The notes beneath the pieces were generated by a model. The model did not search any database. It was not told where the DNA came from and saw nothing but the letters and a program-made list of their open reading frames with translations. The translations under genes were made by a program, and so were the position numbers. From positions 141,048-205,047 of the forward strand of contig CACWPS010000005.1 in the NCBI GenBank assembly GCA_902762875.1: 64,000 nucleotides of DNA, read 5' to 3'. The stretch comes from Oscillospiraceae bacterium. GTDB lineage: Bacteria; Bacillota; Clostridia; Oscillospirales; Acutalibacteraceae. Positions 30,529 through 36,621 of the stretch are shown piece after piece (the first letter of the stretch is position 1; each line of letters begins with the position of its first letter).

Positions 30529-31314
30529 CTATATACCGAATAAATTTTCCGTGTTTTTCCTTGCAGAGCTTAGCACCTGTTCAACCGTTGTGCTTCTTAA
30601 TTCTGCAATTTTTTTTGCGGTGTAATAAATCATATCCGAATGATTTATCTCCCCTCTGTAGGGAACAGGGGTTAAATAGGGAGCGTCGGTTTCAAGCAAA
30701 AAGCGGTCCTCGGGGAGCATTTCTACAACTTCGGGGAGCTTTTTTGCATTTTTAAAGGTTATAACTCCCCCGATTCCTATATACATACCTAATTCCAGTA
30801 TTTCCCTTGCCATTTCACGACTTCCCGAAAAGCTGTGAACAACACCCCTTGGGCGGTGCTTTTTTAAAAGCTCAAGGGTGTCTGCGTGGGCGTCTCGGTC
30901 ATGGACGATAACGGGGAGTCTTAACCTGTTTGCAAGGATTAACTGCTCCTCAAAAAGGGCTATTTGCTCCTCCTTATTGTCCGAAACCCAATAATAATCC
31001 AAGCCGATTTCGCCTATGGCAACGCACTTTTTATGCTTTGAAAGCTCCTCAATTTCTGCCGCTGTTCCGCCGTCGATATTCTCGGGGTGAACACCTACTG
31101 CGGCGTAAATATATGGGTACTTTTCGGCATAGACAAGGGCCTTTTTTGAAGACAGGGTATCGCACCCGCAGTTGATTACGCCGCATACACCGTGACGGGG
31201 CAGAGCCTCTAAAAGCTCATCACGGATTCCGTCGAATTTTGCATCGTCATAGTGGGCGTGGCTGTCGAAAATCAGGGGCTCGTTTAAAGGGCATTCCTCT
31301 AAAAAATCACTCAT
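30529..31314 (-). CDS. tatD: TatD-family metal-dependent DNase/hydrolase
   Basis: TatD proteins are TIM-barrel metallohydrolases linked to DNA repair and 3'-5' exonuclease or D-aminoacyl-tRNA editing activity. The 261-residue product has the HxH metal motif (FDSHAHYDD near 18), Glu in GEIGLDYYW near 100, His in IVHDRDAH and VVHSFSGS, and the Asp in LLETDAPYLTPVPYRG near 205. The start overlaps the metG stop by four bases, an arrangement common in Firmicutes (metG-tatD). Confidence 0.95.
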   Translation of the reverse strand: MSDFLEECPLNEPLIFDSHAHYDDAKFDGIRDELLEALPRHGVCGVINCGCDTLSSKKALVYAEKYPYIYAAVGVHPENIDGGTAAEIEELSKHKKCVAIGEIGLDYYWVSDNKEEQIALFEEQLILANRLRLPVIVHDRDAHADTLELLKKHRPRGVVHSFSGSREMAREILELGMYIGIGGVITFKNAKKLPEVVEMLPEDRFLLETDAPYLTPVPYRGEINHSDMIYYTAKKIAELRSTTVEQVLSSARKNTENLFGI

Positions 31315-33212
31315 CTTATCTTACTTCCCGCAGGGACGCCGTCAATAAACAGCACCTTAACATCGTCCTTAGCGCAGTCGGCGGCTAAAATCATACCGTT
31401 TGACTCGACACCGCAAAGCTTTGCGGGCTTTAGGTTTGCCACAACGATTACGGTGTGGCCGATAAGCTCGTCAGGGGTATAGTAGTTGGCAATACCCGAG
31501 GCTACGGTTCTGGGTGTTCCGCTGCCGTCATCAAGGGTTAATTTCAAAAGCTTTTTCGCCTTGGGAATAGGCTCGCAGGCGGTGATTTTAGCGGCTTTAA
31601 GCTCCACCTTGGCAAAATCCTCTATACCTATCTGTGCGATACCCTCAACCTTTTCAGGCTCTGCCTTTGCCTCGTTTTCGGCGGCAATTTCGGCTAAAAC
31701 CTTTTCAACATCCAAACGGGGGAAGAGGTTAGCGGTTTCCTCGGGGGTGTAGCTGTCAGGTGTGCGAAGCTCCTCGCTGACACTGTCCCCCGCAATGCTT
31801 TTCGCCGTGTCGGGCATAATGGGACTAAGTAATGTGCCGATAATTTTTATAAGGTCTAAAAGGTTGTAAAGAACATCGTTAAGGCGGTCTTTTTGCGCCT
31901 CGTCCTTTGCTAGTGCCCAGGGCATCGTTTCGTCAATATACTTGTTGCAACGCTTAGCCAAATCCAAAACAGCGGCACAGGCATCGGCATTACGGTAATC
32001 GTCCATACACTTGTGGTATTTTGAAATGCAGTCTTCGGCAAAGGAGAAAAGCTCTTTATCTAAAGCTTCTGTAATTTCGTGCTTTACTACAGTACCGCCG
32101 AAATACTTTTTGGTCATAGCCACGGTACGGCTTACAAGGTTGCCTATGGTATTTGCAAGGTCGGCGTTAAAGACATTTATAAAGCTTTCATAGGTAAAGG
32201 TGCCGTCATTACCGAAGGGCATTTGAGAAAGCAGATAGTAACGAACCGCATCGGCACCGAAGCGCTTTGCCAATTCGTCGGCATAAACCACATTGCCCTT
32301 GGATTTTGACATTTTGTCTTCACCTACAAGCACCCAAGGATGCCCTAAAACCTGCTTAGGCAGGGGAAGTCCTAAAGCCATTAAAATGATAGGCCAGTAA
32401 ATGGTGTGGAAGCGGACAATATCCTTACCTATAACATGCAGGTCGGCAGGCCAAAGCTGGCTGAACTTATCGCTGCTGCCGTCGGGATTGTAGCCGATAC
32501 CCGTAATGTAGTTGGAAAGAGCGTCAATCCAAACATAGATTACATGCTTATCGTCAAACTCAACCGGCACACCCCATTTAAAGGAGGAACGGGAAACACA
32601 AAGGTCTTGAAGTCCCGGCTTTAGGAAGTTGTTTATCATCTCGTTTTTGCGGGATTCGGGCTTAATGAAATCGGGGTTTTCCTCGAAATATTTAAGCAGT
32701 CTGTCTTGATATTTGCTAAGCCTTAAGAAATAAGCCTCTTCCTTAGAGTCGACAACCTCTCTGCCGCAGTCGGGACATTTGCCGTCTACCAACTGGGATT
32801 CGGTATAAAAAGACTCACAGGGAACACAGTACTTGCCCTCATAGGTGCTTTTGTAAATATCCCCCTGCTCGTAAAGCTTGGTGAAAATTCTCTGTACCGC
32901 CTTTTCGTGGTCGGCATCGGTGGTACGGATAAATTTATCGTAGGAAGTGTTAAGGCTGTCCCAAACCGCCTTAATGGTTGCGGCGGCATTATCCACATAC
33001 TCCTTAGGAGTAATGCCCTGCGCCTTGGCCTTTTCCTCAATTTTCTGCCCGTGCTCGTCGGAGCCGGTCATCAGGTAAACCTCATAGCCCATCTGCTTTT
33101 TATAGCGTGCTATCATATCCGCAAGCACAATATCATAGGCATTGCCTATATGGGGCTTGCTGGAAGCGTAGGCTATTGCGGTTGTAATATAAAACTTTTT
33201 CTTTTCGGACAT
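31311..33212 (-). CDS. metG: methionyl-tRNA synthetase with C-terminal tRNA-binding domain
   Basis: Charges tRNA-Met. The 633-residue product has the class I HIGH-like signature (KPHIGNAYD), KMSKS as DKMSKSKGN near 300, a zinc knuckle with CVPC and CPDC, the anticodon-binding helical domain, and a C-terminal EMAP/Trbp111 domain (IGIEDFAKVELKAAKITACEP) that aids dimerisation and tRNA binding. The ATG at 33212 is chosen because AGGAGG lies seven bases away; the ATG two codons upstream abuts that site. No T-box leader is visible. Confidence 0.96.
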   Translation of the reverse strand: MSEKKKFYITTAIAYASSKPHIGNAYDIVLADMIARYKKQMGYEVYLMTGSDEHGQKIEEKAKAQGITPKEYVDNAAATIKAVWDSLNTSYDKFIRTTDADHEKAVQRIFTKLYEQGDIYKSTYEGKYCVPCESFYTESQLVDGKCPDCGREVVDSKEEAYFLRLSKYQDRLLKYFEENPDFIKPESRKNEMINNFLKPGLQDLCVSRSSFKWGVPVEFDDKHVIYVWIDALSNYITGIGYNPDGSSDKFSQLWPADLHVIGKDIVRFHTIYWPIILMALGLPLPKQVLGHPWVLVGEDKMSKSKGNVVYADELAKRFGADAVRYYLLSQMPFGNDGTFTYESFINVFNADLANTIGNLVSRTVAMTKKYFGGTVVKHEITEALDKELFSFAEDCISKYHKCMDDYRNADACAAVLDLAKRCNKYIDETMPWALAKDEAQKDRLNDVLYNLLDLIKIIGTLLSPIMPDTAKSIAGDSVSEELRTPDSYTPEETANLFPRLDVEKVLAEIAAENEAKAEPEKVEGIAQIGIEDFAKVELKAAKITACEPIPKAKKLLKLTLDDGSGTPRTVASGIANYYTPDELIGHTVIVVANLKPAKLCGVESNGMILAADCAKDDVKVLFIDGVPAGSKIR

Positions 33213-33223
33213 AATCATTCCTC

Positions 33224-35866
33224 CTATGGTTTCTGTGTTAAATATAAAATATAGGAAACAACAGCCGATATAAGGCTGTAAAACAGTACTGTGGTTCCGC
33301 CCATAAGGGAGCCCGAGCCGTCAAATGACATATAGGCAAACAGCACTGAGCCCAAAGCCGCCGAAATCACATAAAGAACTGTAAGCAAAAGGTTTGACTT
33401 TTTAATCTTTGACGCATTGCTTATAATGGCGGCAAGGCCCAAAGGATTGCTCTTATATGCGGCGGGAGCAGAGTAGGAAGGTGTGGGGGTGACTGCATTT
33501 TTATACATATGACAGCCTGCGGCGCTCATAACCTTAACCGAATCGCTGTAAAGACCGAAATAGTCGCAAATCATTTCCTCGGTCATATTAGGGTCGGAGC
33601 TGTTAATTAACATCGTAACCCCTAAAGCCGACACACGGCGCAATTCCTTTGCTATATCCTCTCTTACGGTGTAGCTTACGGTTATTAAGGCACAGGCCTT
33701 ATCCTGTGAGGCGACATATACAGGGAAAAGTCCCTGACGGAGTATCTTTCGGTCAAGCTCGACATTCGGAACCTCAATTCCGTGTGCCTCCATAAGGGTG
33801 CGGTTGCCTATAAATAAAAGCTTATCGTCAACCCAGCCAGAAATACCCATTCTGTCCTCGTATTTTACGGTGTCCGAATCGGGTAAAACCGTGTTCCCGC
33901 CCGTGCCCGCTATTTTTTTGAAGATAGGGGCTAAGGGGCTTCTCATAGCCTCTGTAAGAGATGCGGCACGGATTATTGTATCGTCAATGCTGTTGTCGGA
34001 CAAAACTTGAAGTCTGTGCAGCTGTACCGTGCCAGAGGGGAAAAGCTCATCTGCGGAGAATACCGCCGCATTGGCGTTTTCAACCCGCTCTGCTCCCGTT
34101 TTTCCCGCAATCATCGCCCCCATTTTGGCAAGGCGCTTTGCAGAGGAATAAAGGGGTAAATTATCTATCATAAATATTACGGGCAATGCGGCAAAGCACT
34201 GAATTGCCGCCGCACTGTAAAAGCCGTATAATACGCCGTCAAAATAAGCGGTACAGGCAAGACCCACCACAACCGAAAGTAAAAGCGAAATCACCGTTAT
34301 TACGGGCAATTTCCCCGATAAAACTATTCTAAAGGTGGAATATTTCATATAACTGTCAATATGCTTTGTCCTTTGGGGAGCGGCGGCGAGAACATCACCC
34401 TCAATGGCATTTTTCGCCATAGCAAAGGTTACCGCTTGGTCGCCTATAAGCTTCACCGCCCGTTTGGGTGAAGAAAGGGAGATTTGCTTAAAGCCCGCCA
34501 ACATATAGCCCGCATTCCAGAAGGAGCTCAACGCACGGACAAAGAGTATTACCGCACCTAAAAGTATAAGGTCAAGGGCAATTTCATTTTTAAATACCGC
34601 TGTTATACCGTAGGCTATAACCGAAACCGAGGCGGTAACCGACAGTACATCAGGGTTAGAGTGACGGCTGAAAATTTTGGGGAGACTTTTGAACATATCT
34701 GCATTAATAACTGTTATTATTCCCAAAACTGCGGTACATATTATGTTTGCCGCCATAGTGTGGGCAAGCAGCATTTCGGACATAAAGGGGAGCTTTGCAA
34801 TGCACAGCAAAATAAGTCCCAATCCCGAGAAAACCGTTCTTAAAAAGGCAGAGCGCTTTTTTACAGATAACTGCCTAAGTATTCGCTTTGCATCCTTTTC
34901 GTCGGAAAATTCCTCTTTGGGTATGTATTCCTCAAACTCCGACTGCTCAAGCTGAACCTTGTTTTCAGGTTCTTCGGCACCCGCTTCGGGCAGACCTGTA
35001 AGCTCACCCGTTAAATCAATCGGTCTTGTCCTTGAGCTTACGCTTATGCGAGAGGTGTTATTTACATCTGCTACGGGGGTGAATTTAATGGTGGCTGTGT
35101 TGTGAATATCAGGCGTTTCGGGCTCTTTTTGGGGAGCGGACGGGTCAATGTCCGAAATTACGGATACATTGGTTTGCACCTGTCCCACCTTTGAAAGGGA
35201 AGAAATAAGGTCCTCAAACGCTTCGTTTTCGGGGGCTTTATTGCTCTTTGTCTCTTCGTCGGGCTTTGGCGCCTCGGGCTCGGCTTCAACACTATACTTA
35301 CCAAGGTCGTCAAAGGATATTTCATATTTTTGTGAGAGCTTGTCAAGCGCCCTTTTGCTTTCGCTGTTTAAGATTTCCGCCACGCTTTCAAGCCTGTAGG
35401 TGGGGGCGGATTCCATGGCGCTCTCCCCCTCTTCGCCGTCAAGGATAAAGGGACGGCATTTCTCAAGCAAGGAGGGCTCTTCTGATTCTGTCGGCTCTTT
35501 CGGTTCGGGAGCTTTCTCCGCTACAGAGGGATAGGACTGCTTTTCTCTCTTTACCTTATTAAAGCTTTCCGAAAAGGCGCTCAAATCAAAGTCTTCCTCC
35601 TCTGCGGGGGTCGATTTTTCTTCTGCGGGCTCCTGCTCGGATTCGGTGTTTGCCGTATTTTCAAGCATACGCTTTTTAAGGGAATCCAAAGCCCCCGTTG
35701 AAGCTATTTCACCCTCTTCGGAATTTGACGCAAAGTTTAAAACCTCATCAGGAGTAAGTGCGTGCTCGGGGTGCAGAGAACTGTTCTGCCCGAAGGTGTA
35801 TTCGTTATTGTCTTCATCAAACAGATAAAACAATTCTTCGTTTTTCTTTTTTGAAAAAAATCTCAT
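33224..35866 (-). CDS. P-type-ATPase-like membrane pseudoenzyme with disordered N-terminus
   Basis: The 880-residue protein has three parts. Residues 1-330 are acidic, Ser/Pro/Glu-rich and probably disordered cytoplasmic sequence. Residues about 340-580 hold roughly six hydrophobic helices ending in ALPVIFMIDNLPL, the place of the P1B-ATPase ion-site helix. Residues about 580-800 align with P and N domains: RLAKMGAMIAGKTGAERV matches the conserved run-in, but the phospho-acceptor motif DKTGT is replaced by FSADELFPSG near 603-612. GISGWVDDKLLFIGNRTLM near 673 matches the N-domain, TGD is replaced by NSSDP near 755, and GDGxND is absent. Two more helices close it. It therefore cannot be a normal ion pump. 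It overlaps rlmB by four bases. Function unknown. Confidence 0.75.
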   Translation of the reverse strand: MRFFSKKKNEELFYLFDEDNNEYTFGQNSSLHPEHALTPDEVLNFASNSEEGEIASTGALDSLKKRMLENTANTESEQEPAEEKSTPAEEEDFDLSAFSESFNKVKREKQSYPSVAEKAPEPKEPTESEEPSLLEKCRPFILDGEEGESAMESAPTYRLESVAEILNSESKRALDKLSQKYEISFDDLGKYSVEAEPEAPKPDEETKSNKAPENEAFEDLISSLSKVGQVQTNVSVISDIDPSAPQKEPETPDIHNTATIKFTPVADVNNTSRISVSSRTRPIDLTGELTGLPEAGAEEPENKVQLEQSEFEEYIPKEEFSDEKDAKRILRQLSVKKRSAFLRTVFSGLGLILLCIAKLPFMSEMLLAHTMAANIICTAVLGIITVINADMFKSLPKIFSRHSNPDVLSVTASVSVIAYGITAVFKNEIALDLILLGAVILFVRALSSFWNAGYMLAGFKQISLSSPKRAVKLIGDQAVTFAMAKNAIEGDVLAAAPQRTKHIDSYMKYSTFRIVLSGKLPVITVISLLLSVVVGLACTAYFDGVLYGFYSAAAIQCFAALPVIFMIDNLPLYSSAKRLAKMGAMIAGKTGAERVENANAAVFSADELFPSGTVQLHRLQVLSDNSIDDTIIRAASLTEAMRSPLAPIFKKIAGTGGNTVLPDSDTVKYEDRMGISGWVDDKLLFIGNRTLMEAHGIEVPNVELDRKILRQGLFPVYVASQDKACALITVSYTVREDIAKELRRVSALGVTMLINSSDPNMTEEMICDYFGLYSDSVKVMSAAGCHMYKNAVTPTPSYSAPAAYKSNPLGLAAIISNASKIKKSNLLLTVLYVISAALGSVLFAYMSFDGSGSLMGGTTVLFYSLISAVVSYILYLTQKP

Positions 35867-36621
35867 AACTGCCTCCTTTTTCGCACGACCTCGTACATAA
35901 GCACACCCGCCGCCACCGAGGCGTTAAGGGAGTTGATTTTACCAAACATAGGCAGGCTTACTATCCCGTCACATTTTTTGGCGGTAAGTGCGCCTATTCC
36001 GCTGCCCTCGTTGCCGATTACAAGGGCTAAGGAACAGTCAAAATCTGTTTTTGTGTAATCGCCGCCGTCCATATCTGCGCCGAAAACCCAAACACCTTTT
36101 TCTTTCAGCTCGTCTATTGTATTGGCAATATTATTAACCCTTGCCACAGGCATATATTCGAGTGCCCCGCATGCCGCCTTTGCAACGGTTGCGTTAAGTG
36201 AGGCGCTCCTGCGCTTGGGTATTATTATACCGTGTGCGCCGCAAATTTCGGCAGTTCTTATAATTGCGCCCAAATTGTGGGGGTCTTCTATTTCATCGCA
36301 TATTATTATGAATGGCTTTTCTTGCTTTTGCTCTGCAAGGGCGAAAATATCCTCGACCGTGGCATATTCCTGCGAGGCGAACATAACCGCCACACCCTGA
36401 TGGTTGGCTCCGCCGCAGTAATAGTCAAGCTTTTGGGGGCTTACCTCTTTTATAAGCACACCCTTTGCACGGCACTTAGCGATTATAGCCGTAACCGAGC
36501 CCCCCGAAACACCGTGAGCCACAAGCAGACGGTCAATTTCTCTGCCCGAGCGCACCGCTTCAAGCACGGGGTTTCTTCCGCATATTATATTTCCTGTGCG
36601 TTCTGTGTTTGTATTATCCAT
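35863..36621 (-). CDS. rlmB: 23S rRNA 2'-O-ribose methyltransferase, RlmB family
   Basis: A SPOUT methyltransferase for 23S rRNA (G2251 in E. coli numbering). The 252-residue product has an N-terminal L30e-like substrate domain (GRNPVLEAVRSGREIDRLLV) and the trefoil-knot motifs NLGAIIRTAEICGAHG, LVIGNEGSGI and SLNASVAAGVLMYEV. First gene of the minus-strand unit; its stop overlaps the start of the pseudo-ATPase gene. Confidence 0.94.
   Translation of the reverse strand: MDNTNTERTGNIICGRNPVLEAVRSGREIDRLLVAHGVSGGSVTAIIAKCRAKGVLIKEVSPQKLDYYCGGANHQGVAVMFASQEYATVEDIFALAEQKQEKPFIIICDEIEDPHNLGAIIRTAEICGAHGIIIPKRRSASLNATVAKAACGALEYMPVARVNNIANTIDELKEKGVWVFGADMDGGDYTKTDFDCSLALVIGNEGSGIGALTAKKCDGIVSLPMFGKINSLNASVAAGVLMYEVVRKRRQL

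Follow-up and report, generated by a model that had tools for sequence, protein, structure and literature searches.

The window analysed here is a stretch of 64,000 nucleotides from an Oscillospiraceae bacterium (assembly GCA_902762875.1, contig CACWPS010000005.1, positions 141,048 to 205,047 of the forward strand). An open reading frame (ORF) at positions 33224-35866 on its minus strand encodes a protein of 880 amino acids (aa) with an ATG start; the plus strand over the same positions is full of stops. By its sequence this protein is a divergent relative of the P1B-type ATPases, and its counterparts, found in nearly every sampled genome of the order Oscillospirales, share the loss of residues on which P-type pumping depends. 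We put a probability of roughly 0.55 on the reading that this family is an ancient non-catalytic membrane pseudoenzyme serving as a docking or regulatory platform.

Similarity to CopA-type pumps spans residues 520-778. In a phmmer search of PDB with the window protein the best entry was 3rfu (1.4e-9), accompanied by weak matches to non-pump entries (three at 0.003 and three at 2). With an order-level profile (A3, built from 37 of 38 order-level loci, L115 being left out, and four of 39 genus-level sequences) 3rfu was matched at 9.5e-33, and all 53 of the 53 PDB entries listed were P-type ATPases. Against Pfam the window protein had no match above cutoff (Hydrolase scored 14 bits, its cutoff being 26.4). 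Its NCBIfam matches were exclusively to CopA/ZntA-type models and far under their cutoffs; the CopA model was matched at 1e-15, with a score of 57 bits where the cutoff is 1316. When 41 family core sequences were compared with Pfam at E<=0.01, four matched Hydrolase, one DUF4079 and one E1-E2_ATPase, and the NCBIfam CopA model was touched by 30 of the 41. Poor scores in both libraries, together with PDB searches that put CopA first, indicate a divergent P1B-ATPase relative that the models of either library cover poorly.

The predicted structure points the same way. The full-length AlphaFold2 (AF2) model consists of a disordered tail and confident transmembrane (TM) helices, and the core-only model has a predicted local distance difference test score (pLDDT) of 82.0 and a predicted template modelling score (pTM) of 0.77. 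Hydropathy and the core model concur on eight TM helices. Foldseek searches with the core model returned CopA (4bbj, 6.3e-15) first and ATP7B (7si6) at 1.6e-13; with both the full-length and core models, P1B pumps and KdpB were at the top and P2 and P3 pumps lower. Among solved structures P1B pumps rank first for this family by both the A3 profile and Foldseek, and the eight-helix topology and P1B fold that mark the P1B class are both present as predictions. The sequence-only reading, in which the protein was called a P-type ATPase relative, had proposed comparing a structure prediction with such pumps, and the model does resemble them. The gene and its parts are as follows.

33224..35866, minus strand: pseudo-P1B-ATPase gene, 880 aa (ORF, homology and Foldseek)
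34943..35866, minus strand: acidic disordered N-terminal tail, residues 1-308 (AF2 and composition)
35738..35764, minus strand: short motif HALTPDEVL, residues 35-43 (genus alignment)
34478..34900, minus strand: first four TM helices, equivalents of MA, MB, M1 and M2, residues 323-463 (AF2 and hydropathy)
34310..34477, minus strand: shortened A-domain without TGE, residues 464-519 (alignment and core model)
34121..34309, minus strand: M3-M4 equivalents, with ALP in place of CPC, residues 520-582 (alignment)
34037..34057, minus strand: SADELFP at the DKTGTxT site, residues 604-610, S604 being the phospho-Asp position (alignment)
33662..34030, minus strand: N-domain-like region, residues 613-735, with the HP histidine lost and G674 and G687 kept (alignment)
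33593..33601, minus strand: SSD at the TGD site, residues 756-758, with the Asp kept (alignment)
33236..33439, minus strand: last two TM helices, M5-M6 equivalents, residues 810-877 (AF2 and hydropathy)

P-type ATPases are defined by a phospho-aspartate, and their pumping needs the aspartyl-phosphate, its Lys, the Mg-binding GDGxND motif and the TGE loop; the HP histidine and the GxG residues of the N-domain contact adenine. We compared these positions column by column in 98 distinct family members and 22 intact pumps. The pumps were selected for DKTGT and GDGxND, and all 22 also have the HP histidine and CPC. The 98 members are those left after merging duplicates and dropping 26 ORFs below 300 bits, which were either cut by the locus end or the N-terminal piece of a broken gene in genome G058, whose C-terminal piece is counted among the 98. 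Since 41 of the members come from the window's genus, percentages lean toward that genus.

In the window protein DKTGT aligns with SADEL in AVFSADELFPSG, and TGD with SSD in INSSDPN. GDGxND is absent from this protein, from all 98 members and from the 38 order-level ORFs. No member has DKTGT either, its Lys, Gly and last Thr each being found in 0 of 98. The phospho-Asp position is occupied by D in 30 members, S in 19, N in 17, H in 9 and other residues in the remainder; the Gly position holds D in 67 and E in 17, never G, and the final Thr position I, L, V, F or A. A new motif has taken shape after this site, with F609 in 94/98 and P610 in 87/98, and in most members [DE][LIV]FP stands where DKTGTxT ends. 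The letters DKTG do occur in three members, always within the tail ahead of the core. The HP histidine is missing throughout (0/98 versus 22/22 pumps), as is the first Gly of GxG in 77 members, and the CPC metal site of M4 retains its first Cys in six members and its second in one, versus both in 22/22 pumps. The M2-M3 segment, which forms the A-domain, is 46-65 residues long (median 58) compared with 120-124 in 19 of the 22 pumps, the remaining three having this segment trimmed by the alignment; no TGE is found in the segment of the window protein. Kept residues are D758 of TGD (97/98) and the N-domain glycines G674 and G687 (98/98 each).

These losses make it close to certain that the pump cycle is gone, and we infer that ATPase activity is absent. 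Members from the window's genus retain the phospho-position Asp in 2 of 41 cases and those from elsewhere in 28 of 57, which suggests that Lys, Gly and Thr would have been lost first and the Asp then repeatedly. Losses of DKTGT, TGD and GDGxND had been noticed in the sequence-only reading; all three are correct, and those of TGE, CPC and the HP histidine come in addition. A profile search in the order was proposed there as a further check; the losses prove to be conserved order-wide, with the predicted P1B fold kept. A family homologue with intact DKTGT, which would make the window copy a recent pseudogene, was not found among the 98 members, and recent loss in a single strain is excluded.

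We then followed the family through the taxonomy. With the window protein as a query, matches at E<=0.001 were obtained in 56 of 60 relatives, including weak matches to real pumps, and a genus-level profile matched in 98 of 147 order genomes. With a threshold of E<=1e-45, the A3 profile identified the family in 132 of 134 genera and in 241 of 247 genomes from the order, the genomes searched being 90% complete or better. Each genome had one match, except G448 with two, and among the matches listed nearly the whole profile was covered. Of 196 class genomes, nine belong to the order, and their matches (342-723 bits) take in almost the entire profile; the 187 outside the order gave none at E<=1e-45, the best being 5.3e-40 (136.5 bits) over profile positions 207-491 only, the part common with real pumps. 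Three matches at 1e-45 were found in 249 phylum genomes, all of them within the order. Given this distribution in class and phylum, the gene is a candidate marker for the order.

Six order genomes lack a match at 1e-45. In one (G062) rlmB is present (229 bits) and a family-like N-terminus runs into the contig end. In the other five (G127, G092, G115, G150 and G435, of which G092 and G150 share a genus) the best rlmB match scores 34-71 bits, compared with 221-518 bits for rlmB beside the gene elsewhere (phmmer on ORFs, values only roughly comparable). A close rlmB therefore also seems to be missing from these five genomes, which may reflect an assembly gap or joint loss. In one further genome (G058, locus L115) a single internal TGA splits the gene into frames of 376 and 434 aa; this may be a sequencing error or a real break.

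The core is under purifying selection. Among pairs above 70% core identity, the ratio of nonsynonymous to synonymous substitution rates (dN/dS) in the two least saturated was 0.057 (L004/L002) and 0.069 (L010/L008) for the core and a looser 0.222 and 0.255, respectively, for the tail; 13 further, more saturated pairs gave core values of 0.08-0.16. In the terms by which pseudoenzymes are recognized, the family has lost its catalytic residues, kept its predicted fold and remained under purifying selection.

The tail is long, acidic and disordered, as the sequence-only reading had it: residues 1-308 contain 68 D+E versus 32 K+R, and pLDDT is below 50 at residues 1-63, 69-166 and 182-308 of the full-length model. 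In the stop-to-stop frames of 37 order-level genes the part ahead of the core ranges from 99 to 890 residues, while the core is constant at 546-596. A motif near the N-terminus, [YF]S[VIL][DE]DIL.E, is common to several families. The tail of the window's genus carries HALTPDEVL, a possible counterpart of that motif, along with the blocks LLEKC, LESVAEIL, ISDID and FTPV; no Pfam metal-binding domain matched the N-terminus of the window protein. Short conserved motifs in a disordered tail would be suited to docking.

The tail motif, written as DNA patterns, was searched for in sets of 16, 147 and 247 genomes from the order and in 147 genomes from the class; in the 247-genome search 15 places away from known family genes were retrieved and the rest judged by position. 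Translated matches outside the family fell mostly inside folded domains, which we take by eye to be RimO-like, EF-Ts-like and UbiB-like. Two others lie at the ends of membrane proteins, also named by eye: YS[IL][DE]DILAE ends an LspA-like protein (G122; L175/L185), and FSIDDILAE starts an ABC-2-like permease (G130; L183/L184). The motif as an address tag shared with other proteins was set aside, as most translated matches outside the family are in folded domains and two membrane-protein tails are too few.

On its upstream side the gene has a constant neighbour. The neighbours in the window, with presumed names, are the following.

35863..36621, minus strand: rlmB (23S rRNA 2'-O-methyltransferase), directly upstream of the pseudo-ATPase gene (presumed name)
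31311..33218, minus strand: metG, downstream of the pseudo-ATPase gene (presumed name)
30529..31314, minus strand: tatD-like hydrolase, downstream of metG (presumed name)

All four genes, in the order rlmB-ORF-metG-tatD, lie on one strand, with the rlmB stop overlapping the ORF start by 4 bases, in keeping with the operon with rlmB and metG proposed earlier. On the same strand, rlmB lies immediately upstream in 82 of 84 loci: 45 of the 46 at genus level, which include several duplicates and the locus of the window itself, and 37 of the 38 at order level (16 families). The count covers these two sets, and loci collected later stand outside it. The two loci without rlmB upstream (L041 and L105) are cut by a contig end, and in L115 the N-terminal half of the split gene sits between rlmB and the remainder. 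Between the rlmB stop and the first ATG of the gene lie -4 to 182 bases where measurable, L115 apart. This pairing suggests translational or functional coupling. Downstream, metG is kept in genus-level loci but not order-wide; depending on the family this side has metG-tatD, prfC, genes for a radical SAM or a PPDK-like protein, or others, and nothing there hinted at a function.

Our preferred reading of these results is that an ancient CopA-like P1B-type ATPase lost its catalytic and metal-binding equipment, probably by the time of the order's last common ancestor or earlier, and that the stripped pump was retained as a non-catalytic membrane pseudoenzyme. Its eight predicted TM helices would carry a compact headpiece in the cytosol, in which the A-domain is shortened, the P-domain has no catalytic residues left and the N-domain has lost the histidine that contacts adenine. 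A partner may be bound by the tail together with the FP/DPN face of the inactive P-domain, and the TM bundle would anchor the protein or sense. Because nearly all sampled members of the order keep a copy, with rlmB beside it wherever the neighbourhood was inspected, the dead pump has probably acquired a new, non-pumping job, and a membrane platform or regulatory subunit is, with the odds leaning modestly its way, the most economical function for it. The sequence-only reading had suggested a membrane pseudoenzyme acting as a scaffold, sensor or lipid/ion regulator: its first part stands firmly, and the choice among the three lies beyond the power of sequence.

Several observations weigh against a platform. 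No partner, ligand or phenotype is known to stand behind it, and the linkage to rlmB could be operon inertia. The tail motif is patchy: even in a loose form it is found within the first 160 residues of only 24 of the 57 members outside the window's genus, and that genus has at most a diverged version. The strict DNA pattern occurs in 32 of 147 order genomes, several times within unrelated proteins, and also, as DNA-level matches only, in 9 of the 141 genomes from elsewhere in the class. As for the fold, the TM-scores of the core against pumps are about 0.2-0.5, none of them high, as might be expected of a relative whose headpiece has shrunk, and the AF2 models were built on 17 of the 39 sequences of the genus-level set (A1), all close relatives. 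The catalytic site is not uniformly bare either. Asp still stands at the phospho position in close to a third of members (30/98) and D758 is near invariant, which makes some chemistry or metal binding possible, at least in other lineages. The letters TGE are found in the shortened A-domain segment of six of the 98 members (L112, L113, L062, L092, L102 and one more); they may be what is left of the dephosphorylation loop or have arisen by chance.

The acidic residues are the starting point for the idea of a non-canonical transporter, which would move an ion or lipid by another energy source or chemistry through a cluster formed by Asp at position 604 in some lineages, an Asp or Glu replacing the Gly of DKTGT (84/98, beside 30/98 for the phospho position) and D758 (97/98). 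Mg2+ uptake claimed for ERMA without TGES and GDGxND, in one report (PMC13322241), would give it a parallel; in another, however, no ATPase activity was detected for TMEM94 (PMC12134183). In the window's genus only 2 of 41 members have the phospho-position Asp and none has the Lys; with CPC gone and no candidate ion site identified in the family, we consider transport unlikely. We are just as doubtful of a nucleotide or phospho-ligand sensor, whose N-domain would bind without hydrolysis and signal to the membrane or a partner. The invariance of G674 (of GxG) and G687 in 98/98 members argues that the N-domain core is kept, and TMEM94 is reported to bind AMPPCP without detected ATPase activity (PMC12134183). 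The residues taken to contact adenine are nevertheless depleted, the histidine in 98/98 and the first GxG Gly in 77/98.

A passive facilitator permeable to lipid or ion, derived from the former pump, would make use of the eight-helix P1B membrane bundle, which is kept as predicted, and would recall the phosphatidic-acid-shaped lipid described for TMEM94 in the same report (PMC12134183). Conservation lies elsewhere, however: 17 of the 20 columns conserved at 80% or more among the 98 members are at residues 571-760 (the end of M4 and the headpiece), one of the 20 falls in the last TM pair, and no conserved polar path was identified, though without a detailed search for one. We regard such a facilitator as improbable. 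The idea of a functionless gene, either a pseudogene in decay or a selfish remnant, to which the lost catalytic motifs and the broken frame of G058 might point, has a negligible chance of being right; decay is excluded by retention in 241/247 genomes and 132/134 genera and by a core dN/dS of 0.06-0.07.

The nearest precedent for this family is eukaryotic TMEM94, also called ERMA. In one report (PMC12134183) TMEM94 has a P-type-like fold in which TGES is missing and the GDGxND loop is replaced; no ATPase activity was detected, AMPPCP was bound at micromolar affinity, and a phosphatidic-acid-shaped lipid was held by the protein. Another report (PMC13322241) takes ERMA to be a Mg2+ ATPase with Mg2+ uptake despite the loss of TGES and GDGxND. 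On a comparison made through these papers only, TMEM94/ERMA has ten TM helices, is closest to SPCA and has DKQGI, which keeps Asp and Lys, whereas the bacterial family is P1B-like, has eight TM helices and keeps the Lys in 0/98. With the P1B-ATPases CopA, ATP7B and ZntA the family shares the eight-TM topology, the A/P/N order, the predicted fold, the N-domain glycines G674/G687 and the Asp of TGD; it differs in lacking DKTGT, GDGxND, the HP histidine and CPC (second Cys 1/98), in an A-domain of about half the length and in its long disordered N-terminal tail. In a UniProt survey (PMC3896382, PLoS One 2014) DKTGT is given for 99.77% of the P-type ATPases identified, and 22 of 9,634 sequences have single point changes in it; such variants resemble the present family in their imperfect motif, whereas here the whole motif set is gone order-wide. 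Among the matches listed in our literature search, which mostly did not extend to subscription journals or bioRxiv, no publication dealt with the bacterial family. A dead P1B pump in 241/247 genomes would show that bacteria have put the P-type fold to a use other than pumping, and a near-universal gene of a bacterial order is unusual among dead P-type ATPases. The family offers a simple bacterial model for the TMEM94/ERMA dispute, and its gene is a knock-out target in culturable members of the order.

A second dead pump was found at the same locus in one family (f19). There the gene upstream of rlmB encodes a protein of 737-822 aa (L092, L102, L108, L243-L247). Of three such proteins scanned, all matched the Pfam family E1-E2_ATPase above its cutoff and one matched Cation_ATPase_N. 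This P2-type protein has lost TGES, DKTGT, TGD and GDGVND in all five genomes carrying the gene, and in all five rlmB adjoins it. In a search of 197 order genomes the five f19 proteins scored at least 533 bits and the runner-up 145; the motif check took in the f19 loci and the 25 that followed, and DKTGT is present in 24 of the latter. Apparently, a P2-type pump has been inactivated separately at the rlmB locus, which renders coincidence less appealing as an explanation. It is conceivable, though we think it rather unlikely, that the dead copper pump is a core membrane receptor working with rlmB, for example by linking the membrane to ribosomes or to the state of translation, with the f19 P2-type pump perhaps as a hetero-oligomer partner. 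At the remaining one of the 25 loci (L259, G145) the longest ORF has neither DKTGT nor GDGxND and may be either in the wrong frame or a further dead pump.

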